From Bacteroidota bacterium (GTDB lineage Bacteria; Bacteroidota; Ignavibacteria; SZUA-365): 64,000 nucleotides of DNA. A model generated the notes under the pieces. It had not been told where the DNA came from. It did no database searches and saw nothing but the letters and a program-made list of their open reading frames with translations. How positions within the stretch are numbered: the first letter of the stretch is position 1; each line of letters begins with the position of its first letter. The position numbers and the translations under genes were made by a program. The stretch is taken from NCBI GenBank assembly GCA_003246455.1, contig QKAF01000079.1, positions 1 through 64,000 on the forward strand, written 5' to 3'. Below are positions 18,309 to 25,062 of this stretch, in pieces.

Positions 18309-20975
18309 TCATTGGGAGATCACAAACGGGCGCGTGACCTGCCGCGCGCCGCTTTCGGCACGCAGAAGATACAGGCCCGGAGCGAGACCGAGCGCCGCGG
18401 TGGGGAAACGCAGTGTGGAGAAAACGGAAGGCAGCCGGCCATCGAACAATTCGCCGCGCATTCTTCCCAGCAGATCATACACGCGGATCCGCACCGTCGA
18501 CGGCGGCGATGAGAGCCGCAGCTCCAGCGGTTGTCCGGTGGCCAGCGGCTGCGGATACAGCGCGTCGACGGAGAAATCCGCGGCGACCGCAGCAGCCCCG
18601 CCAATGCCCAGAAGGATCGCCGTACCGTCCACACGAATGGAATTCGGCGATGTCGGCGCATCGGAGGTGATGACAATGTCGGCGCGCTTGATACCCACCG
18701 AACTCGGGGTGAAACGGACCAGGAAGGGTTCGCTGCCGTCGCCGGGGATGCGCATGGGCAGGACCGCCTCGATCTCGAACTGGTCGGCATCCGCGCCGGC
18801 AAGCTGAATATCGGTCACGACGAGTTCGACACCCGAGGTGTTGCGGACACGGAGCTCCATTTCCTGTTTTCGCGTCGTCATGGTCGTGTCGAAATGCGCC
18901 GCCACGGGAATGGTGATCAGCGACGGCTCGGCGCCGATGCCCGAGAGCCGGCCTTCCTTCGGCAGATCCTCGGCATTGCTGAAAACGCGGATGGTCGCTT
19001 CCTTCGGCCCCGGCGCGAGAGGGGCAAACCGCAGCTTGAGCGCGGCAGACGTTCCTTCCGGCACCATCAGCGGCAGCGGCGGATTGTCTCCGAGAGAAAA
19101 GCGCTCGCGGTCGGTCCCGTCGATTTCTATGCTGGTCACGACCAGCATGCCGGTCCCGGTATTCTGAATCATCCCGTCGATGGCTTCCTCGTTCACCGCG
19201 CCCACTTTGGTGACGCGGAACTGATGGACGCTCTTGAGGCGCAGTCCGGGATTCGTGCCGAGACCGTGGAGGGGAATGATCACCGGGTCCTGCGGCGCAT
19301 CGCTGCTGATGCGCAGTTCCGATATTCGGTCGCCGGTGCCGGACGGGGTGAATGACAGCGCGATATCGATGCCTTCGCCCGGCTCAAGGATGGCAGGCAG
19401 CGCGAATGTCGGGGTGAAAATGAAATCTTGTGGATGGGTCGTGCCGGGATTGCTCGCGCGGCGCACGTTGGTGATCGTCAGCGGACGCGCCCCGTCATTG
19501 GAGACGTGAACGGTGTCGGACACGGTCTCGCCCACCTTGAGGATGCCGAAATCGACGGAGTCGGGGTAGACGAGACGGGGCATCCAGGCGACGCGCTGCG
19601 CGTAGATGTCGGCCTGCCCGTCGAGGGTGCGTCCATCATACCAGCAGATCAGCGCATGGCCGACACCGCTTTCGATGATCTGGGGTGCGAGCTGGTTGTT
19701 GTCATGCGAAACGAGCAGCACGCCGCTGTGTCCGTTCCATTCCGGGTAGTTCGTCTGCCCCTGAGAGGAGATACGATTCATGTACAGATCGTAGTCGAAG
19801 CTGTTGCGCTTGTCCTGCCAGACGGCGAAGCCGCCCCCGAAGCCGTCGGAGATCATCGCCGGACGTTCCTGGGTGTTCGCGTAGTCGCACAGCGCGTTTC
19901 CGAAGTCGCCGACGATGACGCCGTCGGCCCGGATGCGCCGCATGTACACATCGCCTTCGCCCGCGCCGCTGCGGTAGTCGGTCCACACCGCGAGCGCGCC
20001 CTGCTGTCCGTCGTCGGTCAGCGCCATGCCGCTCTGCGCGTTCTCGGACTGCGAAACCTGGTAATCCTCGCCGTAGAGCCGATCGCCGTTCTCATCGATG
20101 ACCTGCAGGTACAGCGCCGAGGTCGAGGGGCCGAGACGGTAATCCTGCCAGAAGAACGCGACGGATTTGTCGCCGTACGGGATTACTTTCGGTGCGACCT
20201 GCCGGTTGGCTTCCACGCAGACCGGAAGATCCTCGTTCCAGCCGGGCGTTCCGTCCGCAAGGATGTGCTGCGCGTAGATGTCGTCTTCGGTCCGCCGGTC
20301 CATCCACGCGATGTAGGCGCCGCCCGCCTGATCGGTCGCCAGCTGGGGGTAATTCTGGTCGCCCGTCGCAGTGGAAACCGCGACGCCGTCGGCGGACCAT
20401 AACGCCGTCCCCCCTGCAGTGATGCGCTGGGCGTAGATATCATTGTCGTTTCCCGACCGCTTGTCGTGCCAGGTCATGATCAGCCCGCCGTTTCCGTCGG
20501 CGATCATCTCGGCCCATTCCTGGCGTCCCGCTGCCCCGCAAACCGTCATCGGCACCGGGGACCAGACAGGAAGGCAGCTGCCGTCGATGCGCTGCAGGTA
20601 AAGATCGCCTCCGTTGCCCTCGCGATCCCACCATCCGACGAACGCACCGCCCGCACCGTCGCTGATAATGCCCGCGAGCCGCTGGCCGCTGCGCGCCGGA
20701 GCGATTTCTACGCCGTCATGCTGCAGCGGGACGCTTCCGTCAGGGAGAATGCGCGCGCCGTAAATCGCGGCGTCGGAACCGCCCCGCATGTCCTCCCAGA
20801 CGATGATCGCGCCTTCGGCACCATCGGTGACCATGCGGGGATTCCTCTGCCAGCCGTCCGCCGTGCAGACCGGGACCCCGGTACTGTCCCAGAGCAGCAC
20901 CTGCCCGTGCACGGGAACCAGGCCTGCGAACAGAATTCCGAGAGAAAACACGATATGACGAAGGGAGGAGCGCAT
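18309..20975 (-). CDS. secreted repeat protein with choice-of-anchor-D domains and T9SS sorting domain
   Basis: An 888-residue exported protein. The signal peptide is about 1-25 (FSLGILFAGLVPVHGQ). A propeller-like N-terminal half (30-480) contains about eight repeats of the type GGAFVGWWDREGNGGDLYLQ and WTDYRSGAGEGDVYMRRI. Two or more ASPM/SPD-2/Hydin-like Ig domains follow (about 490-800; VDFGILKVGETVSDTVHVSN). The Por-type C-terminal sorting domain is about 805-888 (LYPQPLATGQPLELRL, then VYDLLGRM). ATG 20975 is taken because it starts the signal peptide; the frame is open to 21089. A likely leader ORF and terminator lie upstream on the same strand. Function is probably surface or adhesive; no catalytic motif was seen. 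Confidence 0.85.
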   Translation of the reverse strand: MRSSLRHIVFSLGILFAGLVPVHGQVLLWDSTGVPVCTADGWQRNPRMVTDGAEGAIIVWEDMRGGSDAAIYGARILPDGSVPLQHDGVEIAPARSGQRLAGIISDGAGGAFVGWWDREGNGGDLYLQRIDGSCLPVWSPVPMTVCGAAGRQEWAEMIADGNGGLIMTWHDKRSGNDNDIYAQRITAGGTALWSADGVAVSTATGDQNYPQLATDQAGGAYIAWMDRRTEDDIYAQHILADGTPGWNEDLPVCVEANRQVAPKVIPYGDKSVAFFWQDYRLGPSTSALYLQVIDENGDRLYGEDYQVSQSENAQSGMALTDDGQQGALAVWTDYRSGAGEGDVYMRRIRADGVIVGDFGNALCDYANTQERPAMISDGFGGGFAVWQDKRNSFDYDLYMNRISSQGQTNYPEWNGHSGVLLVSHDNNQLAPQIIESGVGHALICWYDGRTLDGQADIYAQRVAWMPRLVYPDSVDFGILKVGETVSDTVHVSNDGARPLTITNVRRASNPGTTHPQDFIFTPTFALPAILEPGEGIDIALSFTPSGTGDRISELRISSDAPQDPVIIPLHGLGTNPGLRLKSVHQFRVTKVGAVNEEAIDGMIQNTGTGMLVVTSIEIDGTDRERFSLGDNPPLPLMVPEGTSAALKLRFAPLAPGPKEATIRVFSNAEDLPKEGRLSGIGAEPSLITIPVAAHFDTTMTTRKQEMELRVRNTSGVELVVTDIQLAGADADQFEIEAVLPMRIPGDGSEPFLVRFTPSSVGIKRADIVITSDAPTSPNSIRVDGTAILLGIGGAAAVAADFSVDALYPQPLATGQPLELRLSSPPSTVRIRVYDLLGRMRGELFDGRLPSVFSTLRFPTAALGLAPGLYLLRAESGARQVTRPFVISQ

Positions 20976-21116
20976 GACGATGCCCGTGAATTGCAATGGT
21001 TCAGATGCCGGAACAGGCTCCGGAGCGATGAGATGGAAAACGGTGATCGAAGATAGAAAGTATCTGATTTGCGCCGCTTTTTCAAGCACAGGAGGCGAAA
21101 ACGGTATGGAAAGGCC

Positions 21117-21156
21117 AAAAAAAGATCCCGGCCAGAGGAGGGGAACCGGGATCTTT
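21117..21156 (-). terminator. rho-independent terminator in a gene leader
   Basis: CCGGGATCTTT (21146-21156) and AAAGATCCCGG (21121-21131) form an 11-bp perfect stem with a 14-nt loop. On the minus strand it runs straight into a TTTTTTT tract (21123-21117). No annotated minus-strand gene lies just upstream; the T9SS gene starts about 140 nt downstream. This makes it either an attenuator or the end of a small transcript. Confidence 0.8.
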
Positions 21157-21241
21157 AAACAGGAAGGGAAACGAGGGACTTTTCGAGAGGTGCCGTTACT
21201 TGAGCCTTTTTCTCAGGAAGGGTATTGAGTCTATCCATCAT
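21155..21241 (-). CDS. candidate 28-residue leader peptide or small ORF
   Basis: On the minus strand, tandem ATGs at 21241/21238 open a 28-codon frame (beginning MMDRLNTLPEKK, ending LVSLPV). Its TAA stop overlaps the first base pair of the strong terminator at 21117-21156. There is no clear Shine-Dalgarno sequence, and the codons show no run of a single amino acid that would signal a classical biosynthetic attenuator. The tight ORF-terminator join ahead of the T9SS gene is the only support. It could equally be a small protein gene, a non-coding RNA, or chance. Confidence 0.3.
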   Translation of the reverse strand: MMDRLNTLPEKKAQVTAPLEKSLVSLPV

Positions 21242-21440
21242 TGTGAAGAAGGGGTCCGCTCGCTTCGCACTTCCTAGTTTCTTAACGCTTTATGTTACGA
21301 AATAGTTACCCGTCATGCAGGTATTTCAAGGTCAAAATTTCATGCATGCACGGCGATGAGGATGAATTGCGTATGTTAGGGAAAAGCGCCGTTCCCGACC
21401 AGAATCCGTCACGAACGCACGATTCCAGGAGAATATCACC

Positions 21441-22259
21441 ATGTCGGTTCTTATTACCCCCAACACGCTGTTACGGGAGCACGCGCAGGTGCTTCTGCTG
21501 GATTGCCGCTTCGACCTCGCGCAGCCGATGGACGGACGGCGGCGTTTCGCCGAAGGACACCTCCCCGGCGCGCAGTACGTGTCGCTGGACGATGATCTGA
21601 CGGCGGCGCTCGGGGAGCACGGCGGCAGACACCCGCTGCCCGCGGTGGAAGCAATGCAGGCGCTGTTCGGACGGCTCGGCATTGAAAGAGGATCTACCGC
21701 CGTGGTGGCGTACGACGACGAAGGCGGCTGCTACGCGGCACGCGTGTGGTGGATGCTCATGTACTGCGGTCACGAGAATGTGCGCGTGCTGGACGGCGGC
21801 TTCTCCGCATGGAAGGAAGCGGGCGGCGCTGTGACGACGGAAATATCGGTGGCGGATCCCACGGTTTTTCATGCGGAGCTTCAGCCGGGAATGCGGGCAT
21901 CGATGCAGGATGTGCGCGAACGCACGTCGTCCGAAATCCTTTTCGACTGCCGGGCGCCGGAGCGCTATTCCGGCAGCGAGGAAACCATCGACATCAAGGC
22001 CGGACACATCCCGGGAGCGATCAACGTGCCATGGCGTGACCTTGTCGCCGGGACAGGCCGTTTCGTGGATATGGGGCGCATGGCCGACGCGCTGGCCGTG
22101 GCGGACGGCCGAAGCATTTTCTACTGCGGTTCGGGCGTGACCGCCTGCGTCAACGTGCTTGCCGCGGTGCATGCGGGATTCGATCTTCCCCGGCTCTACG
22201 CCGGCAGCTGGAGCGACTGGATCAGCTACGAAGAAAATCCGATCGCCACGGGAAGCTGA
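21441..22259 (+). CDS. sseA: thiosulfate/3-mercaptopyruvate sulfurtransferase
   Basis: A 272-residue tandem-rhodanese protein. The inactive N-terminal rhodanese domain (about 1-130; LLDCRFDLAQP, EGHLPGAQYVSLD) is followed by a catalytic C-terminal domain (about 150-270; FDCRAPERYSG, KAGHIPGAINVPW). The active-site cysteine is C229 in FYCGSGVTAC. The six-residue loop CGSGVT is of the mercaptopyruvate type rather than the CRKGVT of classical rhodanese, so 3-mercaptopyruvate is the more likely donor (inference). CAGGAG stands about 11 nt upstream of ATG 21441. It is followed by a bidirectional terminator shared with the convergent UPF0182 gene. Confidence 0.92.
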   Translation: MSVLITPNTLLREHAQVLLLDCRFDLAQPMDGRRRFAEGHLPGAQYVSLDDDLTAALGEHGGRHPLPAVEAMQALFGRLGIERGSTAVVAYDDEGGCYAARVWWMLMYCGHENVRVLDGGFSAWKEAGGAVTTEISVADPTVFHAELQPGMRASMQDVRERTSSEILFDCRAPERYSGSEETIDIKAGHIPGAINVPWRDLVAGTGRFVDMGRMADALAVADGRSIFYCGSGVTACVNVLAAVHAGFDLPRLYAGSWSDWISYEENPIATGS

Positions 22260-22344: not shown

Positions 22345-25062
22345 TTATTTCTCGGCGGCTTTCACGAGCGCTTCGAGTTCCTTCTTCAGCCGGTCGATCT
22401 CCTGCCCGTACCGGGCCCAGTCGCCGCCGCGCTGCGCGCTGATGGCATTGTTGAAGATCTTCATCGCGGAACGGGAGAGTTCGCGGATACCTTCCGCGGG
22501 CGGTTCGGGTGTCCCGAAGGCGGCACCCGCGGCGTCGGCGGTCTCCGCTTCCTCGCCGCTGCGCGCACGGAATACCTGACGCAGGCTTTCCTCGAGCGTC
22601 GTTTCCATGGCGAGGCGGTTGTGATACGCGACGATGACCCGCTTGAGTTCGGGCAGCTTGCCCGACGTCGCCTGCAGGTACACCGGCTGCACGTACATGA
22701 CTTCCTCCCGGATGGGGATGACCAGGAGGTTGCCGCGGTACACGCTTGATCCCTGCTGATTCCACAGCGTGAGCTGCTGGGAAATGACGGGGTCCTGGTC
22801 GATGCGCGCCGCGACCTGCATCGGACCGTACACCTGTTCCTTCTTCGGGAACTTGTACACCAGCATTTTCCCGTAGTTGTCTCCGTCGCTGCGCGCGCAG
22901 AGCCAGGCGATCATGTTGTCGCGCTTGTTCGGGGTATAGGGAATCATCTGGATGAATTCCTCGTGCGGCTCGCCCGGGAGACGCATGATGGCGTAATAGC
23001 TTTCCATCTGGACGACGTTGTCCTGGAGTTTCTCGTTCGCGATGTTCCACAGATCTTCCTTGTTATAGAAGACCTGCGGGTCCTCCATGTGGTAGGTCGA
23101 GTAGATCTCGGACTGCACGTCGAAGAGGTCCTGCGGATAGCGGATATGCGCGCGAAGATTTTCCGGCAGCTCGGACTGGTCGCGGAACAGGTCGGGGAAA
23201 ATACGCCGGTACACGCGCACCATGGGATCCTTGTCCGCATTGAACAGATAGAAATTGGTTTCGCCGTTGTAGGCGTCGATGACGATTTTGACGGAATTAC
23301 GGATATAGTTGAAATCCGCCGCCGGTTTGGAGTACGGGAAATTGCTGCTGGTGGTGTATGCATCGTAGATCCAGTAGAGCCGCCCGTCGGCCACGACGAG
23401 ATACGGATCCTGGTCGAAAGTCAGGAACGGCGCGATCTTCCGTACCCGTTCGTGAATATTGCGGTAATACAGCACCTTGCTTTCCGGAGCGATGTATCCG
23501 GAAATAAGCATGTTCATGTCGCTGAAATGCATCGCGAAGATGAGGCGGCGCAGAAACGAACCCACGCTGACCCCCGAATTCTCCTGGTATTTCGTCATCT
23601 GGTTGATGTCGCCGAGCGGGTAGTCGAACTCCTCGATGTTGCCGTTGACGATGACCCGGTTGTCGGTTTCTTCCCCGTAGTAGATTTCCGGACGCGTGAC
23701 GGTCATCCCGTGTTCGGAAACAGGCGGGATGTCCTTGATGAAGAATTCCGGGAGCCCTTCCTCGGTCACGACGTTCACCGGACTCATACCCAGGCCGTAG
23801 CCGTGCGTATAGACGAGGTTCGTATTGACCCAGGTCTGCGCGTTCGCCGGCAGTTTGTTTCGGTCGAGCTCGCGTGCGCTGAGCATCACCTGCCGGAAGC
23901 TGCCGTCAGGCAGACGATAGCGGTCGATGTCCACGTCCGGGAAGGTGTAATAGAGACGGATGACCTGCAGCTGATCGAGGGTGCTGGCCAGCGGACGGTA
24001 GTCCCAGAGCATGATGTTGCGAATCGTCGCGCTGTCGGCCACGATATGTTCGAAATCGAGCCCGTACTGCGGATCGATCGGTTTTTCCTCGATGCGGTTG
24101 AGGTCGTAGGCGTGCCGGGTGAACGTCACGTTGTTCTCGATAAAGGGAAGTTCCTTGCTCTGTTCGTTCGGATTGACCACGAATTTCTGGATCAGGGCCG
24201 GGTACACCGTGCCCGCCACGATGGCGATGACCACGAAACCGACGGCGACTTTTGCGAGCAGCTTGAAGCTGCGCGAGAAGAGCGCGTACACGACGGTGAT
24301 TCCCGTGAGCAGGGAGACGATCGTCATGATCCATGCGGCGGGGAGCTGCGCGTTGACGTCGGTGTACCCCGCGCCGAAGAAGCTGGCGGAACGCGCGGTG
24401 GACAGGATGTCGTAGCGTCCGAGCCAGTAGCTCGCGGCGATCAGCAGCATGAGGACCCCGAGGAGGATGGCGATGTGCTTGCGCGCTACCGCCGATATCG
24501 AGATGCGTCCGACCGCGAAGCTCACGCCCTGCCGCACCACGTACACGACGATCGTCGCGATGAGGATCAAAACGACGCAGCCGATGAGCCAGGCTTTTAT
24601 GGTGTTGATGAAGGGAAGCTCGAAGAGGTAGAATGAAACGTCGTTCCCGAAAATCGGGTCCGCGAGGCGGAACGCTTCGCTGTTTCTGAATTCGAGCATC
24701 TGCATCCAGTTGGCAGAGAGCATCCCCGCCATGATGAAGCCGAGAAAGATCGAACCGCCGTAGGCGAGCCAGCGGATGGCTTTCTGGAAACCCTCGACGA
24801 ATTTCTGCAGCCGCGGATCAACGGTCAGGTTGGATTCCGACCGAAGCGCGATACTCAGGTTGAGGTTCATGGCGATCAGGAAAAACACGAAGCCCACGAT
24901 CCAGAGCGTGTACTGCGCGCTGTAGCTTTTCCAGAATACCTCCGTGTAGCCGACGCTGTCGAACCACCACATGTCGGTGACGAAGGAGGAGATCAGGCCG
25001 AGCAGAATCATGAGGCCGATGAAGACGGCGACGACGATGCCGAGCGTACGTCTGATTTTCAT
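22345..25062 (-). CDS. UPF0182 family large membrane protein
   Basis: A 905-residue protein of the UPF0182/COG1615 family, at the family's normal length of 900-1000. The N-terminal 320 residues hold about seven transmembrane helices (near 8-30, 50-70, 95-117, 150-175, 195-215, 240-262 and 268-290). The rest is a large extracytoplasmic domain with the family blocks YTHGYGLGMSPVN, PEIYYGE and YMVVADGRLYWIYDAYTTS-like sequence. It ends in a charged region with a short coiled coil (KELEALVKAAEK). The family is widespread in actinobacteria and cyanobacteria and has no established function. It stands alone and is convergent with sseA. Confidence 0.88.
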   Translation of the reverse strand: MKIRRTLGIVVAVFIGLMILLGLISSFVTDMWWFDSVGYTEVFWKSYSAQYTLWIVGFVFFLIAMNLNLSIALRSESNLTVDPRLQKFVEGFQKAIRWLAYGGSIFLGFIMAGMLSANWMQMLEFRNSEAFRLADPIFGNDVSFYLFELPFINTIKAWLIGCVVLILIATIVVYVVRQGVSFAVGRISISAVARKHIAILLGVLMLLIAASYWLGRYDILSTARSASFFGAGYTDVNAQLPAAWIMTIVSLLTGITVVYALFSRSFKLLAKVAVGFVVIAIVAGTVYPALIQKFVVNPNEQSKELPFIENNVTFTRHAYDLNRIEEKPIDPQYGLDFEHIVADSATIRNIMLWDYRPLASTLDQLQVIRLYYTFPDVDIDRYRLPDGSFRQVMLSARELDRNKLPANAQTWVNTNLVYTHGYGLGMSPVNVVTEEGLPEFFIKDIPPVSEHGMTVTRPEIYYGEETDNRVIVNGNIEEFDYPLGDINQMTKYQENSGVSVGSFLRRLIFAMHFSDMNMLISGYIAPESKVLYYRNIHERVRKIAPFLTFDQDPYLVVADGRLYWIYDAYTTSSNFPYSKPAADFNYIRNSVKIVIDAYNGETNFYLFNADKDPMVRVYRRIFPDLFRDQSELPENLRAHIRYPQDLFDVQSEIYSTYHMEDPQVFYNKEDLWNIANEKLQDNVVQMESYYAIMRLPGEPHEEFIQMIPYTPNKRDNMIAWLCARSDGDNYGKMLVYKFPKKEQVYGPMQVAARIDQDPVISQQLTLWNQQGSSVYRGNLLVIPIREEVMYVQPVYLQATSGKLPELKRVIVAYHNRLAMETTLEESLRQVFRARSGEEAETADAAGAAFGTPEPPAEGIRELSRSAMKIFNNAISAQRGGDWARYGQEIDRLKKELEALVKAAEK

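Follow-up and report, generated by a model that had tools for sequence, protein, structure and literature searches.

A 28-codon open reading frame (ORF) on the minus strand of a Bacteroidota genome runs directly into a strong hairpin terminator, and a gene for a putative type IX secretion system (T9SS) protein starts a short distance further on. The locus lies in contig QKAF01000079.1 of assembly GCA_003246455.1, of which we analysed the first 64,000 nucleotides (nt; the window). Is this arrangement a leader that controls the T9SS gene by attenuation or by a leader peptide, or is it a separate small RNA or protein gene? The original prediction had offered each of these. Its observation of the layout holds because the ATG, the 28 codons, the TAA, the 11-bp stem and the T7 run were all found on the minus strand. 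The best overall explanation, which we regard as probable on the sequence evidence, is a free-standing small RNA of a new family, transcribed from a promoter of the extracytoplasmic function (ECF) type and acting in trans. Window coordinates are used throughout. The window genome is called G000 and its relatives G001 and so on; L-numbers denote fetched loci.

The conserved RNA and its fold

A search with 361 bases against the window genome and 60 relatives matched the stretch in seven other genomes (E 2e-113 to 1e-9) and weakly in an eighth, G004. Conservation of this stretch is well beyond chance. A covariance model, R1, built from six of the matching genomes recovered the RNA in 9 of 12 family members. 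Three members gave no match: G009 and G011, where a contig ends at the expected place of the RNA, and G001, which is 88% complete and cannot be judged. When the search was extended to the class, 10 of 391 genomes matched, nine of which were already known; the tenth (G265, E 0.015) has no core and was discounted as a chance match. The core pattern occurred in five records among named species genomes, all from uncultured Bacteroidota and one labelled Ignavibacteria. A mobile origin was rejected, as plasmids and phages gave no match and the core pattern was present in no viral contigs. No Rfam 15 family reached its gathering threshold in the window, and known families, including ar14, LhrC, PyrR and NsiR1, were rejected with a best sub-threshold match of 16.5 bits. 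The RNA would form a new family that Rfam 15 does not contain.

The modelled RNA (Table 1) consists of a closing helix, P1, a large internal loop and a second hairpin. The arms of P1 differ considerably in sequence between genomes and are still predicted to form a duplex in all nine. In the alignment fitted to the model, which is biased towards the structure, standard pairs make up 84.1% of P1 compared with 73.1% in shuffles, 11 of the 17 modelled pairs are altered on both sides compared with 4.2, and the covariation score is 0.448 compared with 0.232. None of 500 shuffles reached the observed pairing or covariation, and structures slid by 1–3 columns scored no higher than 0.162. Separate duplex predictions and single-sequence folds agree on P1 in all nine genomes. 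The loop that P1 encloses is about 70 nt long and nearly invariant; a covarying helix between its two most conserved blocks was searched for and none was found.

Hairpin 2 has a strong predicted fold. The first three T of its run (21123-21117) lie within the stem, and the ORF stop codon shares bases with the first two stem positions. A simple terminator scan of the window did not report this hairpin because its loop exceeds the 8-base limit of the scan. In the nine genomes 87.9% of its cells are paired and four of 11 pairs are altered on both sides, with 6 of 500 shuffles as high. The loop motif CCCTCCT (CCCUCCU in the RNA) is retained in eight of nine genomes and is anti-Shine-Dalgarno-like. 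G004 and G006 keep the hairpin and have lost the T run; by eye, both have a new strong terminator no more than about 60 nt further on. Therefore, hairpin 2 is part of the RNA and not a terminator alone, and it usually serves as the terminator. G002 also has a second terminator behind hairpin 2 (by eye). The second hairpins of G004 and G006 (L014 and L008) are near-identical, AGAACGA(G/A)GACGCCCGTC(C/T)TCGTTCT, and may represent a terminator element that is repeated.

The reading frame is not preserved in the same way. It has 28 codons in G000 and G003, 10 in G005 and G010, 9 in G007 and G004, 40 in G006, 59 in G002 and 70 in G008, and a conserved frame was not found across the nine genomes. 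The alignment of relatives that the original prediction had proposed, in search of conserved codons or structure, thus revealed structure in the form of the covarying P1 and no conserved codons. A short peptide gene, or a leader peptide terminating at the hairpin, would explain why the ATG codons and the first codons are identical in most genomes. The frame, however, stops after 9–10 codons in four of the nine and has differing lengths in three more, third codon positions are unchanged in the conserved block, and no Shine-Dalgarno sequence precedes the ATG. A peptide gene or leader-peptide switch was rejected because the frame is lost in relatives, and we consider it highly improbable. Broken in most relatives, the 28-codon ORF is, as far as the compared sequences tell, no more than chance. 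The ORF and the terminator had been placed correctly in the prediction, which missed the start of the RNA near 21274, upstream of the ORF, and the promoter-like element that belongs to it.

Attenuation of the T9SS gene or an independent RNA

The likely start of the downstream protein is the ATG at 20975, picked by its signal peptide (MRSSLRHIVFSLGILFAGLVPVHGQ); it lies about 140 nt beyond the T run on the same strand, as had been claimed. The T9SS type A sorting tail of this protein is borderline (TIGR04183, 22.9 bits against a cut-off of 23). The gene upstream of the RNA encodes a rhodanese and is divergent, so the hairpin has no upstream gene to serve, which also agrees with the prediction.

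A structured cis-regulatory leader of the T9SS gene, riboswitch-like or an attenuator, in which P1 and the loop sense a signal and the hairpin stops transcription, would fit several features. The RNA and the T9SS gene adjoin on the same strand in seven of nine genomes, the terminator sits before the gene, and the closing helix around a strongly conserved loop resembles an aptamer. However, G002 and G006 keep the RNA with other genes downstream, on the opposite strand, in place of the T9SS gene. Conversely, a homologue of the gene (36% identity) in G015, a genome outside the family, is not preceded by the RNA, and 1500 bases of its upstream sequence are available. No antiterminator was found either: in each of the nine genomes 37–99% of 200 shuffles pair with the terminator arm at least as strongly as the real sequence does. 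Furthermore, inspection by eye showed a promoter-like element, TTG-N20-TAnnTTT, between the terminator and the gene; G005 has it at identical spacing, and G003 and G010 have comparable strings. The element resembles the -7 box TAnnTTTG described for the primary sigma factor of a Flavobacterium (PMC9723704).

Attenuation is therefore unlikely, because the RNA persists without the T9SS gene and no antiterminator partner was found for the terminator arm; we hold the cis-leader as a whole to be quite improbable. The T9SS gene is predicted to be a separate unit. Of the possibilities originally raised, the separate small RNA gene is the one that agrees with a conserved, covarying RNA independent of the T9SS gene, and the locus very probably encodes a free-standing RNA under selection.

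Promoter-like element and candidate target

Upstream of the RNA, GTAAC and GTT are the only invariant runs of at least three bases, and in all nine genomes 17 bases and then a pyrimidine (y) lie between them. The resulting GTAAC-N17-yGTT ends 7–9 nt ahead of the closing helix in the nine genomes. Loci around 30 of the 38 Sigma70_r2 matches, taken from G000 and G007 and totalling 94 kb, were scanned for related strings. GTAAC-N16/17-yGTy occurred five times, always within 300 nt upstream of a sigma domain; the remainder of the 94 kb, both strands scanned, had none, and two-part control strings (reversed and swapped) were absent from those 300-nt upstream regions. The forms GTAAC-N16-TGTy stand just before ECF sigma genes at L096, L101, L103, L104 and L105, and L094 and L098 carry GGAAC-N16-CGTC. 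L096 and L103, with TGTT, are apparently an orthologous pair present in both genomes, and L104 and L105 another. Such elements before ECF sigma genes would be as expected for self-regulated promoters, and they supply a motif set for this family. It is reasonably probable from this motif that an ECF sigma factor, one of the stress type, drives the RNA. The promoter pattern also matched an unrelated repeat in G004 (L048/L052, C21:37484-37648), two copies of GTAACGGCAGAGAGGCAACACG(T/C)GTTTA 137 bases apart.

The nine genomes were searched for complements of the two loop blocks (17-mers with up to two mismatches for both, and an exact 12-mer for block 2). Outside the RNA, block 2 gave two matches with the 17-mer and one with the exact 12-mer, and block 1 gave four, each with two mismatches. 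Only the match described next was compared with genes; the loci of some of the others were included in the duplex scan below. The complement of block 2 has one perfect place outside the RNA, 19 nt long (G000:C120:8587-8605), which falls on the pairing strand within an OmpA-family leader. This site, the only GTTACTTGAGCC outside the RNA in the nine genomes, lies 44–62 nt upstream of the start codon of the OmpA-family gene. The encoded protein has an OmpA domain (PF00691, 83.7 bits) and TSP3 repeats, and it matches a beta-barrel weakly. Pairing goes on co-linearly between leader bases GAGUC...CCAUCA and block 1 bases UGAUGG...GACUC, as far as the AAGGAG ribosome-binding site.

The duplex with this leader was computed at -65.0 kcal/mol compared with a shuffle minimum of -44.7, and none of 300 shuffles was as low. 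With the 19-mer taken out, the rest of the leader still pairs more strongly than 976 of 1000 shuffles, and 177 of 7358 genomic windows do equally well, about 2% in both comparisons. In a duplex scan covering part of the fetched loci, the OmpA-family leader ranks first of 15,831 windows; two rows of that scan, L057 and L060, come from the locus of the RNA itself. In the predicted fold of the RNA, accessibility is mixed: block 2 is mostly open, but 6 of the 19 bases and part of block 1 are predicted to be paired. About 160 nt upstream of the OmpA-family start, G000 (L116, C120) and G002 (L117, C302) share a block, CTTTTTTTGTATGTAC(T/A)CCA, which may be a promoter that gives a long leader.

In the mechanism that these data suggest, an ECF-type sigma factor would transcribe the RNA from GTAAC-N17-yGTT, transcription would end at the terminator of the RNA or at a further one shortly after it, and the displayed loop would pair with messages in trans. 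In G000 the loop would pair with the OmpA-family leader over about -62 to -11 and reach the ribosome-binding site. The expected effect would be repression of translation, because the pairing touches that site. Pairing with messages in trans is, in our judgement, moderately probable, and chances are about even that the OmpA-family message is a target in G000.

Several results weigh against this picture. The covariance model matched none of four other genomes of the order. The GTAAC-N16/17-yGTy pattern was tightened after a looser scan, and the spacing is 16 before the ECF genes and 17 before the RNA. The strict string GTAAC-N17-yGTTTA has 8 matches in the nine genomes, four of them this RNA, compared with 18 for its reversed control, so that no genome-wide enrichment of it was seen there. 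OmpA-family orthologues in G002 (76%) and G004 (50%) lack the site, and G003, which has the same loop, has neither a close OmpA-family orthologue nor a site. When the leaders of G002 and G004 were ranked among real windows, 14 and 13 of 150 were at least as good (a tail of about 9%). This control was preferred because shuffles alone gave better-looking values (13 and 6 of 300).

The RNA might then be a free-standing pairing RNA whose match to the OmpA-family leader is coincidental or a local duplication, its real targets being others. The site is found in none of the eight other genomes, as this account would have it, and we give it somewhat less than an even chance. It has to contend with the fact that the match falls on the right strand and in the right place, involves a loop block and is extended by co-linear pairing to the ribosome-binding site; the estimated chance of an exact 19-mer of the loop anywhere in the genome would be about 0.002. 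Alternatively, the RNA could work by binding a protein, or be a 6S-like housekeeping RNA, and not pair with messages. The long closing helix around a sizeable conserved internal loop would suit such a role, as would a loop sequence that stays invariant although strong pairing is seen in one genome only. No Rfam family, 6S types included, was matched at E up to 10, however, and neither the perfect 19-nt antisense match nor the C-rich loop of hairpin 2 is in line with it, which makes this role unlikely. Returning to pairing in trans by an ECF-driven RNA, a more specific form of it is a tentative and rather doubtful proposal: the covarying helix may display the invariant loop of about 70 nt as a long antisense platform, which would gain and lose whole-loop partners in outer-membrane protein leaders from lineage to lineage, the anti-Shine-Dalgarno-like loop of the terminator being a second contact.

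Neighbouring features and known systems

The coordinates are collected in Table 1. In most members of the family the UPF0182 and rhodanese genes lie on either side of the RNA. G007 has its UPF0182 gene about 53 kb from the RNA, and the 5-kb stretch gave no rhodanese match in G002 or G006. A sigma-70 promoter scan found no promoter, and a tRNA and tmRNA search gave none.

Table 1. Positions of the RNA, its parts and its neighbours in the window.
Feature	Position	Strand	Remarks
Small RNA gene	21117..21274	minus	158 nt as modelled, 5' end predicted; covariance model matches in 9/12
P1, 5' arm	21254..21274	minus	pairs with 21179-21162
P1, 3' arm	21162..21179	minus	duplex prediction and covariation
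Loop block 1	21225..21241	minus	AUGAUGGAUAGACUCAA; holds the ORF start codons; nearly invariant in 9/9
Loop block 2	21185..21207	minus	AGGCUCAAGUAACGGCACCUCUC; nearly invariant in 9/9
Hairpin 2 / intrinsic terminator with T run	21117..21156	minus	loop CCCCUCCUC at 21143-21135
Terminator stem	21156-21146 / 21131-21121	minus	AAAGATCCCGG paired with CCGGGATCTTT; 11 bp
-35-like element	21305..21309	minus	GTAAC; invariant in 9/9
-10-like element	21284..21287	minus	CGTT (yGTT in relatives); GTT invariant in 9/9; 9 nt before first helix arm
28-codon ORF	21155..21241	minus	ATG at 21241, translation MMDRLNTLPEKKAQVTAPLEKSLVSLPV, TAA 21157-21155; coding sequence not conserved
Promoter-like element of T9SS gene	21055..21085	minus	TTG-N20-TACTTTCT; between terminator and gene, by eye
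Choice-of-anchor D protein gene (T9SS gene)	18309..20975	minus	NF012200, 119.1 bits; downstream, predicted separate unit
Rhodanese gene	21441-22259	plus	upstream neighbour, divergent, points away
UPF0182 membrane protein gene	22345-25062	minus	beyond the rhodanese gene

Regulatory RNAs of this branch of the Bacteroidota are little studied. A literature search for 'Kapabacteria' with 'small RNA' found no paper, and in a search for Ignavibacteria with RNA terms the word Ignavibacteria appeared in none among the matches listed. If our reading is true, it adds a new RNA family with a concrete candidate target, and a circuit of sigma factor, small RNA and outer-membrane protein that is well known in enterobacteria would extend to a distant phylum.

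The Rfam families ar14 (RF02344) and LhrC (RF00616) also have a terminator hairpin with a C-rich loop, and the resemblance is mainly in the terminator, with scores of 16.5 against a gathering threshold of 58.8 for ar14 and 16.4 against 110 for LhrC. Both ar14 and LhrC act on Shine-Dalgarno sequences. RybB and MicA, which depend on Hfq, differ from the window RNA in sequence and structure. In Salmonella both are sigma-E dependent, a membrane-stress sigma factor driving small RNAs that lower outer-membrane protein (omp) messages, and the likeness lies in the proposed order of sigma factor, small RNA and lowered omp message (PMC1804206). VrrA of Vibrio cholerae (PMC2628432) has the wiring that we propose for the window RNA. 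VrrA is gammaproteobacterial and no sequence relation to it was found in Rfam, the one database searched; the predicted pairing of the window RNA is much longer and its putative link to a sigma factor comes from a motif. Nearer in taxonomy, Rfp11 of Flavobacterium psychrophilum is described as a putative regulatory RNA among the SM6 (CGT-box, ECF-type) promoters, a set that also holds T9SS genes and an ECF sigma/anti-sigma pair (PMC9723704). Compared by description and not by sequence, it belongs to the same phylum and is a putative regulatory RNA behind an ECF-type promoter, the arrangement proposed for the window RNA. We claim no common family with VrrA, MicA and RybB because no sequence relation was found; the analogy is one of function, and the RNA of this locus may work as they do.
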